Positions 883-19,128 of a stretch of DNA of 20,971 nucleotides are shown piece after piece (within the stretch, counting starts at the first letter, position 1; every line of letters starts with the position of its first letter). Under the pieces are notes generated by a model. It searched no databases and was not told the DNA's origin. It was given only the letters and a program-made list of their open reading frames with translations. This DNA is from a virus. Both the position numbers and the translations under genes were made by a program. The DNA lies in the IMG/VR virus record IMGVR_UViG_3300044675_004434, positions 1 through 20,971 of that record, one strand, 5' to 3'.

Positions 883-1557
883 TTAATGATGTTTATCATG
901 CTTGACATGATTTTTATTCATCATAATCTTCTGAATTTCTGGGAAAGACAATGGTTTGCCATGACCATCCCAACCAACATCCAGAATTTTATTGTCTGGA
1001 TATTCTACTTGAGTGGTTGGATTGGTGTAGTGACTATGACCACTCAACTGCCAAGCACCCTTTTGCATTTGATTGAAGATCTGGTGTGGGTAATGATGAA
1101 TAACAATCATATGACCATTTACAATCAGTTCCTTATAATAACCCAGATAAGTTAGTTTACCAATTGCATATGGATACACTTCAATGCCATCATTAGGACT
1201 GTTACCAGTGAATCTAACCATATTCAAATGGCCAGCAACAGCATCTTCATAATGCTTACGAATACAGCTGTTATGATTGCCCCAAATATAAGCAATGTTT
1301 TGACAATTGATTCGTGCTAGAATTTCTTTGAATTCAGGCGGGGTAATATTCAGACAAAAATCACCCAGATGAATTAGTGTATCTTGTGGACGCACTACTT
1401 CATTGATCTTTTCAATCAATGCATCATTGTGTTCATAACGGTTCTTATATCCACGGGATTCGTAGATAAAAGCTTTGTCATGGTTAAAATGAGTATCACT
1501 GGTGAAATATACACGGTGATCATCATTATGAATTAGTTTTAGCGGTCTTTCAAACAT
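883..1557 (-). CDS. Calcineurin-like metallophosphoesterase
   Basis: 224 residues with the full binuclear metallophosphoesterase signature: D21-x-H23 (SDTHF), GD66 (LIHLGDF), G93-N94-H95 (WGNHNS), the H154-H155 region (IVIHHYPH) and G173-H174-S175-H176, then LDVGWDGHG. The family hydrolyses phosphomonoesters or phosphodiesters using two metal ions. It is cytosolic, with no signal peptide. The start codon overlaps the end of the P-loop kinase gene by 8 bp, so the two are translationally coupled. In bacterial Pnkp a kinase and a metallophosphoesterase are fused in one polypeptide, so a role in trimming 3' or 2',3'-cyclic phosphate ends of broken RNA is attractive. The exact substrate is inferred; many phage members of this family are uncharacterised. 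Confidence 0.9.
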   Translation of the reverse strand: MFERPLKLIHNDDHRVYFTSDTHFNHDKAFIYESRGYKNRYEHNDALIEKINEVVRPQDTLIHLGDFCLNITPPEFKEILARINCQNIAYIWGNHNSCIRKHYEDAVAGHLNMVRFTGNSPNDGIEVYPYAIGKLTYLGYYKELIVNGHMIVIHHYPHQIFNQMQKGAWQLSGHSHYTNPTTQVEYPDNKILDVGWDGHGKPLSFPEIQKIMMNKNHVKHDKHH

Positions 1558-2005
1558 AAATTACCTCATCAATACCTTCACTGGTAGAAGGTTCTTCATA
1601 CTTTGCCAACATTTTGTCAATAACCCAATCAGGCACAACTCTGCCACCTTCTTGGCCTCTTTTTTGATTTCGTGCAATCAAACCAGCACGATCCATCTTG
1701 AAAACAAGAGCAATTACTTTTGCGCCATATTTCTTTGCTGTGTTGATATAATCAGATCGTTCTCTACGGTTTACACTGGTTGCATCAACCAATACATTTT
1801 TACCATCTTTTAGAAATTCGTCAACCTTTCTTTTGATGTGACCAAAAACAAGTGGAGTTACCGTTTGATCTTCTTCACTTTTACCAAATACAGCTCGTAA
1901 TTCATCACTACTTAGGTATTCAATGTCTTTTCCTTTAATAAAGTTCTTTGCGTATGTGGATTTACCGCTTCCAGGCAATCCAACAGCGATATAAATTGTA
2001 CTCAT
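1550..2005 (-). CDS. P-loop polynucleotide-kinase-like protein
   Basis: 151 residues. Walker A GLPGSGKS lies at residues 9-16, followed by SSDELRAVFG, the conserved VLVDATSVNRRERSDYI segment and a lid-like region with Arg residues (RNQKRGQEGGRVV). This is the architecture of the 5'-kinase domain of T4 Pnk and related AAA_33 proteins, which transfer phosphate from ATP to a 5'-OH end of RNA or DNA. The HAD 3'-phosphatase domain of T4 Pnk is absent; the protein ends after the kinase. The metallophosphoesterase directly downstream and the RNA ligase at 4741-5844 could supply the other repair activities. It has its own promoter at 2012-2039. A small-molecule kinase of the same fold cannot be excluded. 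Confidence 0.85.
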   Translation of the reverse strand: MSTIYIAVGLPGSGKSTYAKNFIKGKDIEYLSSDELRAVFGKSEEDQTVTPLVFGHIKRKVDEFLKDGKNVLVDATSVNRRERSDYINTAKKYGAKVIALVFKMDRAGLIARNQKRGQEGGRVVPDWVIDKMLAKYEEPSTSEGIDEVIYV

Positions 2006-4740: not shown

Positions 4741-5844
4741 TTAGTTCTTCAATACTTGAAATAGTAACTTCTTATATTCTTCCTTGCCTAACGACTTACC
4801 ATCAAGCAACTTGAACAAAAATGAAGCTCTATTAGTATTACCATAAGCTGAAATTACTTGTTCAGCCTGTAACTTACGAGTAGGTAGAGTCTTGAGTCGG
4901 TTATTCACAAACTCATTCATACCAATCACAATCATATCCACTTCCTTCTTAGCATCACAAATACGGCTAATCATACTTTTAACCTGTTCTGCTAACTCAT
5001 AATCAAAGGTGGTAAAGATATAGTTATAGAAAGTCTGATAGTCAGGCATACCCTGTTCCAACCATACATCTATAACTTTTTCTATATTGCTTAGCTCGCT
5101 CTTCATATGATGTAGAGCAAGATACCAAGCACCCTTTACCTTGTGAAGCATTTGGTCATTCTTTGAATAAACAACCACACCTTCCTTACCTCTCCATTGG
5201 TCAACATCCTTTAACAGATCTTGAACACTAGAAAAAGTATAAGTAGCAGGACGCTTTAAATCAGCCACTCTTGCAAATTCATTTAGTGTATCTTGCATTT
5301 GCAATGAATAATTGATGTGATTTACTACACCAACCAAATACCAATCTGGTTCATCACCATAGTTCAACACAATCTTGTTGATAGGACTAACCCACTCAAA
5401 CAACATTGAATAGTTCCAACTACCGGTAACATCAACTGGCAATTCATCCAGTTTCTTCAGAATGGCGTTCTTGAAAATTTCAAGTTCGTGACCATTAGCC
5501 ATAATAGAAGCATCAACAGTTCCACGGGTACGCAGAATATATTGACCATTATACTTGCTAACAATCAACAATGAACCATCAAGCTTTTCAACCACGGTGC
5601 AATGCTTCAATGAATTAGGAACAGGAAAGTGATCGGGATTCTCACCCCAGTTGGTAAACTTAGGAAAGCCTGCACTGATAACTTCACCAGCATAATTCAC
5701 AACCACACTACGCATGTGCTTGTTGTCTTGAGTCCACTTGGTGCCGATATGTTGTGGTTGAATCAAATAAACAATTTCACCATTAAGTGAATGTTCATGC
5801 ACCATAAATTGGGTGAGGTCAACCTTTTGAATGTCAATCTTCAT
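4741..5844 (-). CDS. RNA ligase, T4 Rnl1-like
   Basis: 367 residues, near the length of T4 RNA ligase 1 (374). Nucleotidyltransferase motifs are in order: motif I E86-K87-L88-D89-G90-S91 with K87 as the AMP-accepting lysine, RTRGT at 105-109, motif III LFEW at 148-151, motif IV EGVVV at 221-225 and motif V HKVKGAWY with K235 and K237. A helical C-terminal domain follows. The enzyme seals 5'-phosphate and 3'-OH RNA ends through ligase-AMP and RNA-AMP intermediates. In T4 it works with Pnk to repair tRNA cut by host anticodon nucleases. Here the kinase and a phosphoesterase are encoded nearby and a tRNA array is present, which supports the same role. It has its own early-type promoter and a terminator. 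Confidence 0.93.
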   Translation of the reverse strand: MKIDIQKVDLTQFMVHEHSLNGEIVYLIQPQHIGTKWTQDNKHMRSVVVNYAGEVISAGFPKFTNWGENPDHFPVPNSLKHCTVVEKLDGSLLIVSKYNGQYILRTRGTVDASIMANGHELEIFKNAILKKLDELPVDVTGSWNYSMLFEWVSPINKIVLNYGDEPDWYLVGVVNHINYSLQMQDTLNEFARVADLKRPATYTFSSVQDLLKDVDQWRGKEGVVVYSKNDQMLHKVKGAWYLALHHMKSELSNIEKVIDVWLEQGMPDYQTFYNYIFTTFDYELAEQVKSMISRICDAKKEVDMIVIGMNEFVNNRLKTLPTRKLQAEQVISAYGNTNRASFLFKLLDGKSLGKEEYKKLLFQVLKN

Positions 5845-12269: not shown

Positions 12270-12362
12270 TGGTGGCTCCGTAGGGAATTGAACCCTATCA
12301 GCACCCAAATCTAGGGATTATACAGATTATAAGTCTGCCCATGCACCATACATCACAGAGCC
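12270..12362 (-). tRNA. tRNA with long variable arm and anticodon TAT (copy 1)
   Basis: 93 nt with encoded CCA. Acceptor GGCTCTG pairs with CGGAGCC, T-arm TAGGG-TTCAATT-CCCTA. Anticodon stem GCAGA/TCTGT encloses CTTATAA, giving TAT at 34-36, which reads AUA. The D-arm is minimal (ATG/CAT around a loop with GG). About 24 nt lie between anticodon and T stems, with an AATC-GATT mini-stem, so it is class II. Normal Ile tRNAs are class I; class II shape belongs to Leu, Ser or Tyr. Amino-acid identity is unclear. A near-copy lies at 13831-13922. Confidence 0.75.
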
Positions 12363-12373
12363 ATTACTAAAAA

Positions 12374-12446
12374 TGGAGCGGGTCCGAACTTTGCATTTCG
12401 CCTTTTAGTCTGGTAGACTAACGTGCCCTCTTTACACTTGACCCGC
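12374..12446 (-). tRNA. Irregular Gly-like tRNA, anticodon ACC
   Basis: 73 nt. Acceptor GCGGGTC pairs perfectly with GACCCGC and is followed by T and CCA; a U discriminator is the Gly pattern. Anticodon stem TTAGT/ACTAA encloses CTACCAG (ACC, reads GGU). Irregular points: A8 instead of U8, a T-arm of only 4 bp (CGAA/TTCG) with loop ATGCAAAG instead of TTCRANN, and ACC instead of GCC or TCC. It may be a divergent functional tRNA or a decaying one. Confidence 0.6.
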
Positions 12447-13830: not shown

Positions 13831-13922
13831 TGGTAGCCTCATGCAGAATCGAACTGCCCAGAACGCCAATCGAGCGATTATAGAGATTATAAGTCTCCCC
13901 ATGCACCTTACATCTTGAGGCC
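13831..13922 (-). tRNA. tRNA with long variable arm and anticodon TAT (copy 2)
   Basis: 92 nt, encoded CCA. Acceptor GGCCTCA/TGAGGCT (G1-U72), D-arm ATG/CAT with loop TAAGGTG, anticodon stem GGAGA/TCTCT around CTTATAA, AATC-GCTC-GATT in the long variable region, T-arm GGCAG-TTCGATT-CTGCA. The D and anticodon regions are nearly identical to the copy at 12270-12362, while acceptor and T stems differ with pairing kept. That is the mark of selection on a folded RNA. Confidence 0.75.
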
Positions 13923-13928
13923 ACTAAA

Positions 13929-14007
13929 TGGTAGCGGGGACAGGATTTGAACCTGTGACCTCCTGGTTATGAGCCAAGCGAGCTGATCCGGGCTGCTCCA
14001 CCCCGCA
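13929..14007 (-). tRNA. Initiator-like tRNA-fMet (CAT)
   Basis: 79 nt with encoded CCA. Initiator features: unpaired 1-72 (T1, T72), A11-U24 in the D-stem (GAGC/GCTC), an AGCCCGG-type D-loop, anticodon loop CTCATAA with G-C pairs next to the loop (CTTGG/CCAGG), AGGTC variable loop and T-loop TTCAAAT. It is strongly similar to bacterial tRNA-fMet. Confidence 0.88.
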
Positions 14008-14038: not shown

Positions 14039-14066
14039 ATCTTATCACACATTGATGTTTTGTCAA
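14039..14066 (-). promoter_or_regulatory. Sigma70-type tRNA promoter
   Basis: TTGACA (14061-14066), 16-bp spacer ending TGA, TAAGAT (14039-14044). A 6-bp inverted repeat GATGTT/AACATC (14054-14070) overlaps the -35. Drives fMet and the second TAT tRNA. Confidence 0.8.
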
Positions 14067-14163: not shown

Positions 14164-14235
14164 TGGTTGGAACGGTGGGTGCTGCCCCCACTTAAACTGG
14201 CTTATGAAACCTGTTTCTTTGCTGAAAGCGCTCCA
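14164..14235 (-). tRNA. Aberrant tRNA-like gene, anticodon CAT
   Basis: 72 nt. Acceptor TGGAGCG pairs with CGTTCCA over all 7 positions (one G-U), then A and CCA. A T-stem GTGGG/CCCAC abuts it in exact register, but the T-loop is GGCAGCA instead of TTCRANN. The D-stem is TTTC/GAAA with loop AGCAAA, lacking GG. Anticodon arm CAGGT/GCCAG (one A-A mismatch) around TTCATAA gives CAT; variable loop TTTAA. The standard D-loop/T-loop contact cannot form. Confidence 0.55.
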
Positions 14236-14242
14236 ATTCAAA

Positions 14243-14318
14243 TGGTTGCTGAAGCGTAGGAATCGCACCTACTTAATGAGTGGTTATGAGCCACCCCCAG
14301 ATCTAACCTGCCGCCAGC
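14243..14318 (-). tRNA. Aberrant tRNA-like gene, anticodon CAT
   Basis: 76 nt. Acceptor GCTGGCG pairs with CTTCAGC with one C-T mismatch, with one extra base on each side before the T-stem and before ACCA. Anticodon arm GGTGG/CCACT around CTCATAA is good. T-stem GTAGG/CCTAC is good, but the loop is TGCGATT (G55). The D-arm is CAG/CTG with loop GTTAGAT, lacking GG. Eight bases from the similar gene at 14164-14235. Confidence 0.5.
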
Positions 14319-14653
14319 TATTAAATTGTGTTGGTTTCGATAATACACGGAGGTTTATTTCAACGAACTAGCGTTTTTTATTGACTCACAATTATCATTT
14401 TTTTCTCAGGTTTGTACGCTTTTCAGCGTTCCATCAATCTGATACTCTATTTTCCACCAACTAAAATTATCAAAAGAACAAATTAAAAATTGTGTTGGGT
14501 GTGTTTATTGAACACTCTATCCACCCAACAAACAGAGTATACCATGACTCATCCCCGCAACCAAGAAGTTTTTTAAGAGACTTCCAACTCTAGGGGCATT
14601 TTGGTTATTTACCCTCCACCAGAGTGTTTTTCTTGCTGATACACTCAAACAAT
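14319..14653 (-). other. Non-coding stretch with strong hairpins in the tRNA array
   Basis: No supported ORF. A 9-bp perfect stem TGTTGGGTG/CACCCAACA (14493-14501 with 14522-14530) would form at the 5' end of a transcript from the promoter at 14536-14564. A boxA-like GTTCTTTTGAT follows at 14469-14479 and an ACGC/GCGT hairpin near 14417-14430. It probably serves as a leader for the two aberrant CAT tRNAs. Confidence 0.45.
14536..14564 (-). promoter_or_regulatory. Probable promoter for the aberrant tRNA unit
   Basis: TTGGTT (14559-14564), 17-bp spacer ending ATGG, TATACT (14536-14541) on the minus strand. The geometry matches the other array promoters; the -35 is weaker. Confidence 0.5.
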
Positions 14654-14728
14654 TGGTAGTCTGTAGGGGAATCGAACCCCTCTTACCGGAGTGAAAGTCC
14701 AGTGTCCTAGCCGATAGACGAACAGACC
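14654..14728 (-). tRNA. tRNA-Glu (TTC)
   Basis: 75 nt, class I, encoded CCA. Acceptor GGTCTGT/ACAGACT (G1-U72), Glu-type D-arm, anticodon stem CTGGA/TCCGG around CTTTCAC, T-loop TTCGATT. Confidence 0.93.
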
Positions 14729-14735
14729 GTTAAAA

Positions 14736-14812
14736 TGGTGGCCCCGGTGGGACTCGAACCCACGACCAAAAGCTTAAAAGGCTTCTGCTACTACCAACTG
14801 AGCTACAAGGCC
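14736..14812 (-). tRNA. tRNA-Lys (TTT)
   Basis: 77 nt, class I, encoded CCA. Acceptor GGCCTTG/CGGGGCC, D-loop AGTTGG, anticodon stem GAAGC/GCTTT around CTTTTAA, T-arm GTGGG-TTCGAGT-CCCAC. First gene after the boxA at 14821-14832; shares a transcript with Glu. Confidence 0.93.
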
Positions 14813-14845: not shown

Positions 14846-14873
14846 ATCTTACCACGATTTATTCTTTTGTCAA
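14846..14873 (-). promoter_or_regulatory. Sigma70-type tRNA promoter
   Basis: TTGACA (14868-14873), 16-bp spacer ending GTGG, TAAGAT (14846-14851). The leader carries GTAGTAAGT and then boxA. Confidence 0.85.
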
Positions 14874-14876
14874 CAG

Positions 14877-14986
14877 TAATTTGTTTCTTTCGTTGGTGAC
14901 TCCCTTTGATTAAAGGTCAAGGCAGTTCCGCCATACGAAGATGTTCTAGAGGAGTGCTTCTCCCACCATGCTGAAAGAACAAATTA
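14877..14986 (-). ncRNA. Structured non-coding RNA with its own promoter
   Basis: The ends pair in a roughly 14-bp stem (14973-14986 with 14877-14891, one bulge). Within it the minus strand offers an inner GGTG/CACC closing pair and three hairpins: GGAG-AAGCA-CTCC, GGC-GGAACT-GCC and CCTTT-AATC-AAAGG. The promoter at 15001-15028 would start a transcript about 7 nt upstream of the outer stem. No ORF and no anticodon or T-loop is seen. The RNA would be a compact multi-branched molecule of about 110-120 nt; role unknown. Confidence 0.6.
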
Positions 14987-17688: not shown

Positions 17689-19128
17689 TTACTTAAGTTT
17701 AACAGGTTGATATACTTTTACATACACTTCTTTTCCTTTTACCTTCACTGTATCTATATAATAGTAATCAATTAGATTGTTTGTTTTATTATATATACTT
17801 TCACTTACTAAAATTTTGGTATTATATTGTTTATTTGCTGCTTCTAATCTGGAGGCTAAATTAACTGGATCTCCAGTAACAGTATAATTGATACGATTGG
17901 TTGAACCAATATTACCCACAATAACTTCACCAGAATTGATACCTATTCTGGTTTTAAATATAAATTTCTTACCTTCAGATTTCCATTTTTGGTTTAAATT
18001 ATCTATTTCTTTGACTATTTCCATTGCAGTTTTGACCGAAACAAATTCATGGTTTTCAACTTTGTTTGGAGCATTCCAAAATGCCATTACAGCATCACCA
18101 ATAAATTTATCAACGGTTGCTCCACTTTCTTCTAAACATTTTACATAGATATCAAAATATTCATTTAATGATGTAACAACTTCATGTACATCATTATTTT
18201 CTGATATGGATGTAAATCCTTCAATGTCACTGAATAATATTGTTACATATTCTTTTTCCCCACCAATTTTTGCATCTTTACCTTGTGTAATCAGTTGTTT
18301 TACAACTTTATCTGGTACATACTTAGCAAATGATCTTAAACCCGTTTTAACTTTATCCGTTGCTTCAATCATATCATTCACCTCAGTAATATTACTCTTG
18401 AAGTCAATGTGTTCATTTACATCCAAATCTTTTAACTTGAGAATTTCATCTCTTACTTTATATAATGGTTTTCTAATTGTATTGGTTACCCAAAATACAA
18501 TGGGCAATATCACAGAAAACATACCAATGAATACAAATGTAAATTTGATTTTATAAACTCTTATATAATAATCAACATCAACAGACTTAATATCACTACA
18601 TACAGCATAAATTAACTTACCATTCTTAAATACAGGCTTATAAGCAGATAAAAATGTACCCCATTTATCTGTATAATAATCACTTTCAAAATGTATTTCA
18701 TCCTTTAGATTTTTAAACAACTCTTTTAATCCATCACCAGCATCATCATATACTTCTCCCAACTTAGCCTGTTCTGATACATCATCACCACAATCCATTA
18801 TATAAGTAATATTTGTGCCTGTTTGTCTTACTATATAAACAAACTTAATATTTTCTATTTGATTTTTAATACTTACTATTTGTTTTCTATAGTTAATAAA
18901 TATTTCACTTTGTTCTTGTTCATACTTAGTAAGACTATCAATTTCATCTGGGTCAAGAATACTACTGCAAACATTTACAGATGTATGTAGACTTCTTTTT
19001 AAACTACTTTTTGCAATATCTTCAATAGCAAATATTAACAGAAAGAAATATACTACACTTACCAATGCCAAAATGAATATGGTACTGGTAGATAATGCAA
19101 ATCTTAAATTGAATTTAAGTCTTTTCAT
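17689..19128 (-). CDS. Transmembrane class III adenylate cyclase with periplasmic sensor
   Basis: 479 residues: TM1 at about 11-36, extracytoplasmic sensor region 37-194 (PAS/CACHE-like by size), TM2 at about 195-217, HAMP-like linker 218-270 and cyclase domain 292-472. The catalytic set is complete: metal aspartates D301 (LFSDIEGFTS) and D345 (KFIGDAVMAFW), adenine-selecting K341 and T416, transition-state N423 and R427 (VNLASRLE). The Lys/Thr pair points to ATP, so the product should be cAMP. The enzyme acts as a dimer at the inner membrane. The start overlaps the end of the barrel gene by 4 bp (ATGA), and the HD hydrolase follows by 6 bp. Such a full-length sensor cyclase is unexpected in a phage-like region. 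Confidence 0.95.
   Translation of the reverse strand: MKRLKFNLRFALSTSTIFILALVSVVYFFLLIFAIEDIAKSSLKRSLHTSVNVCSSILDPDEIDSLTKYEQEQSEIFINYRKQIVSIKNQIENIKFVYIVRQTGTNITYIMDCGDDVSEQAKLGEVYDDAGDGLKELFKNLKDEIHFESDYYTDKWGTFLSAYKPVFKNGKLIYAVCSDIKSVDVDYYIRVYKIKFTFVFIGMFSVILPIVFWVTNTIRKPLYKVRDEILKLKDLDVNEHIDFKSNITEVNDMIEATDKVKTGLRSFAKYVPDKVVKQLITQGKDAKIGGEKEYVTILFSDIEGFTSISENNDVHEVVTSLNEYFDIYVKCLEESGATVDKFIGDAVMAFWNAPNKVENHEFVSVKTAMEIVKEIDNLNQKWKSEGKKFIFKTRIGINSGEVIVGNIGSTNRINYTVTGDPVNLASRLEAANKQYNTKILVSESIYNKTNNLIDYYYIDTVKVKGKEVYVKVYQPVKLK

Follow-up and report, generated by a model that had tools for sequence, protein, structure and literature searches.

Phage tRNAs with a very probably compensated elbow, including a CAT tRNA of a 20,971-base virus record

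Few features of any RNA are as conserved as the GG/TPsiC elbow, on which gene finders depend. Suppressor tRNAs selected in the laboratory (Zagryadskaya et al. 2003, 2004; cited in PMC7912444) reportedly carried altered 54:58 or D/T contacts, and some nonstandard elbows are said to work; those molecules were artificial, whereas the phage variants described here are natural. The staphylococcal tRNA-Gly(UCC) has UGC in place of TPsiC. This tRNA, which serves pentaglycine bridges (PMC8007984), is a natural precedent for one isotype only. Like the phage variants, it is a natural tRNA in which the D- and T-loops are altered and which scores low in database searches, but it is a single isotype with a cell wall role, whereas the variants comprise nearly all isotypes and swap a greater variety of pairs. 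tRNA-Pyl (PMC7609411) likewise has a small D-loop with neither GG nor TPsiC. However, it differs in stem geometry, is one amber-decoding tRNA with its own synthetase, and has no compensated A18:G55 elbow. Among mitochondrial tRNAs, the metazoan types II and III (PMC7609411) also do without the standard GG or TPsiC letters, but they lose the D/T contact or the D-arm, whereas the phage variants retain the D-stem and their contact pairs covary.

Phage tRNAs are known to counter tRNA-targeting defenses, namely, anticodon nucleases and retron effectors, through changes to the anticodon loop or through dosage (PMC10264068, PMC11555353). These too are phage genes altered or supplied against such a defense, but neither of the two papers mentions the elbow. 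T-loop nucleotides and modification sites have been reviewed (PMC7912444), and the word phage is absent from that review and from the review of noncanonical tRNAs (PMC7609411). A search of the full-text literature, with subscription journals and preprints largely outside its coverage, returned no paper on an A18/G55 D-loop/T-loop elbow. Compared with canonical bacterial and phage tRNAs (RF00005), the variants share the four stems, an anticodon loop with U33, an encoded CCA, identity bases, and a location in phage arrays, but they replace G18G19 and T54-Psi55-C56 with covarying alternatives. A large natural set of tRNAs across isotypes, in which the elbow has been replaced in matching pairs, indicates which elbow chemistries remain functional, and its members can be used as they are to test what T54, Psi55, and Gm18 do.

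CAT tRNA genes of the window

The window is a whole IMG/VR virus record of 20,971 bases, in which ARAGORN called nine tRNAs, all on the minus strand. A sequence-only reading had described two adjacent CAT tRNAs without normal elbow sequences; both lie inside this array. The first of these, tB (positions 14164 to 14235, minus strand), is a real CAT tRNA; the second, tA (14243 to 14318, minus strand), is the weaker case because of an irregular acceptor end. A canonical, initiator-like tRNA-Met(CAT) at 13929 to 14007 (minus strand; ARAGORN and Rfam, 56 bits) is the next gene downstream of tB. Canonical tRNA-Lys(TTT) and tRNA-Glu(TTC) genes, found by ARAGORN and Rfam, lie upstream of the pair in the same orientation (14654 to 14812, minus strand).

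In tB, all seven acceptor pairs form, one of them G-U (TGGAGCG/CGTTCCA, 14235 to 14229 with 14174 to 14168). The D-stem of 4 bp (14228 to 14225 with 14220 to 14217) directly abuts the acceptor stem and closes on a 4-base loop, two further departures from canonical tRNA. The anticodon arm (14213 to 14197) has strands CAGGT and GCCAG with one A-A mismatch around the 7-base loop TTCATAA, which includes U33. The T-arm (14191 to 14175) has strands GTGGG and CCCAC, and the 3' end consists of A73 at 14167 and an encoded CCA at 14166 to 14164. The D-loop CAGC (14221 to 14224, minus strand), placed by orthologue alignment, provides A18 and G19, and the T-loop GGCAGCA (14180 to 14186, minus strand), read from the sequence, provides G54, G55, C56, A57, and G58. 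Because A18G19 faces G55C56 in place of G18G19 with T54-U55-C56, tB is a variant and not a member of the standard tRNAs. Phages, related or otherwise, have the same T-loop on tRNAs for Ser, His, Glu, Asp, Thr, and Pro. Met and Ile2 are the candidate amino acid identities of tB. A structure for tB without a D-arm was tried and rejected on account of the 4-base loop and a covarying D-stem (CTTT/AAAG, GTTT/AAAC, and CCTT/AAGG).

Neither tB nor tA was called by ARAGORN, and tB had no match to the Rfam tRNA model even at permissive thresholds. A stem-only finder, blind to the base identities of the D- and T-loops, scores the acceptor, anticodon, and T-stems together with loop lengths, position 33, and CCA and adds slightly for a D-stem. 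With this finder tB scored 43.5, the normal tRNAs of the window scoring 35 to 47.5, and 60 shuffled windows gave no hit. With a covariance model built from 16 other variant tRNAs, none of them CAT, tB scored 23.0 bits (E 4e-5).

In L048, a close relative with 82% identity across the region, the acceptor, D, and anticodon stems of tB have changed in sequence yet still pair. Copies of two tB types are present in eight further contigs, several with different neighbors, and identical tB sequences stand in different genomic contexts; a third type is found in G002, a 303-kb relative, and a loose search with the CGGC-type pattern gave no tB orthologue besides this one. We aligned the four distinct sequences over the acceptor stem (7 pairs), D-stem (4 pairs with a 4-base loop), anticodon stem (5 pairs), and T-stem (5 pairs). 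Pairing held in 96.4% of the pair cells, against 38 to 54% in slid controls, and 10/21 pairs had changed on both sides; neither the pairing nor the double-change value was reached in any of 500 shuffles. Related phages thus show the compensatory stem changes that the sequence-only reading had proposed to look for, and for tB the random stem decay that it had named as counting against selection was the opposite of what was seen, with stems kept through double changes. The elbow moves in the same way: CAGC and GGCAGCA, the D- and T-loops of the other orthologues, are CGGC and ATCGACA in G002, so that positions 18 and 55 have changed together and G18 is restored with U55.

The anticodon arm of tA (strands GGTGG and CCACT, 7-base loop CTCATAA with U33) and its T-arm (strands GTAGG and CCTAC, T-loop TGCGATT at 14267 to 14261) are both sound, and its D-loop, TTAGA, holds A18 and G19. 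The acceptor end is off the normal register: it has one C-U mismatch, a single surplus base in the 3' strand, and an additional A ahead of CCA, giving a 3' end of AACCA where tB has ACCA. Because of this irregular end, tA was missed by the stem-only finder. The Rfam tRNA model gave no match, with only chance-level matches (tRNA-Sec included) at permissive thresholds, and the covariance model from 16 variant tRNAs gave a weak score of 10.8 bits (E 0.27). Near-identical copies of tA exist in L056 and L058/L195. A normal CAT tRNA occupies its slot in L048 and L059. tA fits the compensated-elbow class less well than tB does; it is probably a member, and we put the chance that it is a genuine tRNA with such an elbow at even. 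The CAT loops, the encoded CCA, the altered T-loops, and the lack of GG in the D-loop were thus read correctly for both genes, and the tRNA register of the acceptor and T-stems holds for tB throughout and for the T-stem, not the acceptor, of tA.

A probable third nonstandard tRNA, Gly(ACC)-like, lies at 12374 to 12446 (minus strand). It was found only with the covariance model from the 16 variant tRNAs (R1; 29.7 bits, E 3e-7) and was called by neither ARAGORN nor Rfam. It has the acceptor GCGGGTC/GACCCGC followed by T and CCA, with TGC within an 8-base T-loop. Many viral contigs (L240, L246, L259, L270, L275, L410, and others) and one alphaproteobacterial metagenome-assembled genome (MAG) contig also have one Gly tRNA each in which the anticodon is ACC and the T-loop AGCGTTA; an A34 glycine anticodon is unusual in itself.

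The elbow pairing rule and the spread of the variants

We compiled elbow statistics from 383 non-redundant tRNA-like genes of related and other viral contigs, with D-loops classed by a mechanical rule (GG or AG within the loop), not by structural alignment. At 18:55, GG occurred with U55 in 262 genes and with G55 in 8, and a D-loop without GG occurred with U55 in 13 and with G55 in 96 (Fisher 6e-65); nearly all of the GG-less loops hold AG. Concordance was 358/383, and the maximum in 5000 within-anticodon shuffles was 281. Some contigs had been retrieved by a tRNA pattern, which was handled by excluding the tRNAs that match the retrieval patterns; the counts then became 167/6/14/72 (p 4e-42). 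The association was significant in each of eight records taken singly, related tRNAs being nonindependent. Among the eight genes with GG and G55, several have AG at the expected place and their GG at another point of the loop. Of the thirteen with U55 and no GG, most also lack C56 and have position 19 changed to match.

The other two contacts follow suit. Pairs at 19:56 covary among G:C, A:U, U:A, and C:G, with GA accompanying U56, GT accompanying A56, and GC accompanying G56; loss of C56 was associated with loss of GG (p 2e-9), and 11/13 tRNAs with U55 and a base other than C56 carry the matching D-loop dinucleotide. At 54:58, the 383 genes divide into U:A (295), A:U (53), G:G (20), C:A (7), and other (8), so that 368/383 have one of the first three. 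In sixteen variant tRNAs of several isotypes that align without gaps, 20/21 stem pairs show double changes, and A18, G19, G55, and C56 are invariant.

Going by these sequences, the elbow contact is re-paired and not lost, with 18:55 changed from G:U to A:G and 19:56 usually still G:C. AG replaces GG exactly where G55 replaces U55, which contradicts the earlier claim that both partners of the contact had gone, and the comparison with mitochondrial loss of contact is not supported, since 18:55, 19:56, and 54:58 covary as compensating pairs. The view that these are selected, nonstandard molecules is upheld by covariation in the stems and elbow, recurrence across most isotypes, and retention of identity bases. 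We have high confidence that the class, with tB, consists of genuine tRNAs with a compensated elbow.

Variants made up 23/53 tRNAs in G001, 17/41 in G002, and 10/27 in G003. Most records mix canonical and variant tRNAs, and a limited set of elbow solutions recurs over many isotypes. In G021 (202,882 bases), 37/38 tRNAs are variant and cover almost every amino acid. The array of this record (L313 and L429) has additional T-loops that belong to none of the main classes (CACGCAA, CAGTCAA, CTCCCAA, TCCCCAA, TCGTCAA, and GTGCCAG, with C at 58) and the 4-base D-loops CAGC, AAGT, AAGA, and AAGG on Thr, CAT, Trp, and Ala tRNAs.

A search for the D-loop AAAAGTA with the T-loop AGCRTTA returned 96 viral stretches, and in 63 of these the stem-only finder located a tRNA whose T-loop has AGC; in 257 billion bacterial and archaeal bases it returned 87 stretches and only two clear tRNAs. 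A second pattern, TTTCAGCA..GGCAGCAC, gave mostly chance matches in coding sequence, and we reused those contigs as controls; their 1.06 Mb held six canonical tRNAs and one spurious call. Among four cultured tRNA-rich phages used as controls, XacN1 (0/25) and Wakanda (0/22) had no variants; phage ET08 has one and ZPAH1 two, all three of which obey the same pair rules. Because a blastn search of cultured phages with one variant tRNA gave no match, the class was traced in uncultured contigs. ARAGORN found 162/164 canonical genes and 53/122 variant genes, which makes the tRNA counts of some phages too low.

One His tRNA with A18/G55, A54:U58, and C73 was observed in a Candidatus Doudnabacteria MAG contig (L413, G030:C16:29217-29288). 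It lies in a three-tRNA cluster on a chromosome-like contig, and the pattern occurs in 1/49 genomes of its class.

Function of the variant tRNAs

The bases used for charging are kept in the variants: G3:U70 in 5/5 Ala tRNAs, C73 in 5/6 His tRNAs, U73 in 10/10 Cys tRNAs, and G73 in 12/12 Asp and 6/6 Asn tRNAs as well as in Trp and Ser tRNAs. In several records an isotype exists only as a variant (Phe and Asn in G002; Tyr and Phe in G001). These two observations favor a use of the variant tRNAs in translation, and the anticodon loops, CCA, and range of isotypes likewise suggest that they would be charged. The elbow itself has very probably been rebuilt with matching bases, A18:G55 replacing G18:U55, A54:U58 or G54:G58 replacing U54:A58, and, in some variants, other Watson-Crick pairs replacing G19:C56, and the covariation indicates that the L-shape is most likely kept.

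Formation of T54, Psi55, and Gm18 requires U54, U55, and G18. Variants without U54, U55, and GG would thus have none of these modifications at those positions, and host proteins would not meet the customary letters at their elbow. The likeliest benefit would be escape from elbow-reading host factors, with tRNA-cutting defense enzymes first and modification or quality control enzymes second. We know of no elbow-reading nuclease for the hosts of these phages. Escape is rated likeliest because phage tRNAs already defeat tRNA-targeting defenses, a bacterial toxin cuts the T-loop between T and Psi (PMC9086364), and the modification sites are absent from the variants. The most likely reading is that the variants function as tRNAs while evading the host proteins that recognize the universal elbow, evasion being the part that we infer. 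We give an even chance to the whole chain, from translation tRNAs with a compensated elbow to escape from elbow-reading host factors; escape considered on its own we would place somewhat short of even. Resistance to tRNA-recognizing enzymes, which the sequence-only reading had raised, would be our best guess. More tentative still is the proposal that several phage lineages carry a nearly complete adaptor set with a nonuniversal elbow, beyond TrmA, TruB, and TPsiC-reading host factors, that would resist tRNA-targeting immunity. If true, this would be a second tRNA elbow alphabet, not modifiable by TrmA or TruB, with the 37/38 tRNAs of G021 as its example. The variant set also suggests that phage and host may contend over recognition of the elbow and not of the anticodon.

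The main rival to escape is compensated drift. Phage tRNAs are needed only briefly, which could relax the constraints on the elbow (T54/Psi55 modification and long-term fidelity) and let it wander among the few combinations that fold, with variants that translate normally and are adapted to no enemy. A limited solution set that recurs over many isotypes is what drift would give. TruB was encoded in none of the 7 records tested, so that the phages bring no pseudouridine synthase of their own for this site, which also agrees with drift. So does a comparison of same-anticodon copies, which differed in their elbows no more than expected by chance (42/66, P 0.41), a result on which we rejected the idea that duplicate tRNAs hedge through different elbows. 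However, relaxation should act in XacN1 and Wakanda too, where no tRNA is variant, and drift does not readily account for the 37/38 of G021. We regard drift as a possible but rather unlikely explanation.

Altered elbows can lower use in translation, since the staphylococcal tRNA-Gly is charged but poorly used by EF-Tu and goes to the cell wall bridge (PMC8007984). On this model, charged phage variants with weakened EF-Tu binding could feed another pathway or bait tRNA-binding proteins. Coverage of nearly all amino acids, the presence of variants as the sole copy of an isotype, and normal-looking anticodon loops all speak against it, and the compensating pairs suggest that the L-shape is under selection; we consider such a nontranslational role improbable. 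Decoys for anticodon nucleases, as the sequence-only reading had suggested, appear less likely because almost every amino acid is represented among the variants and charging identity is retained, and the spread of isotypes argues against a decoy for one nuclease. It is highly improbable that the variants are tuned to a translation machine (ribosome or elongation factor) altered by the phage late in infection, which would suit the almost complete set of G021 but not the mixture of canonical and variant tRNAs in most records. Equally remote is decay into pseudogenes with stems and CCA kept by chance, which the acceptor end of tA and the normal CAT tRNA in its slot elsewhere might recall, but which is refuted for tB and the class by the doubly changed pairs of stems and elbow, by identical tB copies in different contexts, and by recurrence over many contigs.

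Other features of the window

A promoter-like TTGACA-16-TAAGAT, found by consensus scan only, lies at 14846 to 14873 (minus strand), upstream of the Lys, Glu, tA, and tB genes, and two near-identical sites lie at 14066 to 14039 and 13069 to 13042 (minus strand). The region held 14 promoter-like sites where 9.7 (SD 3.0) were expected, which is not clearly more than chance. A boxA-like TTCTTTAACAAA is present in the stretch after the site at 14066 at least. The inter-tRNA stretches 14330 to 14640 and 14880 to 14960 are nearly identical to those of L048, although the adjacent tRNAs differ or have been replaced, and may be RNA leaders or processing signals. Two tRNAs with a TAT anticodon, at 12270 to 12362 and 13831 to 13922 (minus strand), have a long variable arm (23 to 24 bases) and a very small D-loop; they differ from ordinary tRNA-Ile, and similar TAT genes are present in relatives.

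An RNA ligase relative at 4741 to 5844 (minus strand) has a weak Pfam match and, by tblastn, hits many annotated phage RNA ligases. With an AAA_33 kinase at 1550 to 2005 (minus strand), it resembles the tRNA repair pairs of other phages. A homologue of this ligase was found in only 1 of the 7 records in which TruB was sought, so it is not a constant companion of the variant tRNAs. The window also encodes, at 17689 to 19128 (minus strand), a 479-amino-acid protein in which hydrophobic segments precede a class III adenylate/guanylate cyclase domain, which is odd for a phage.
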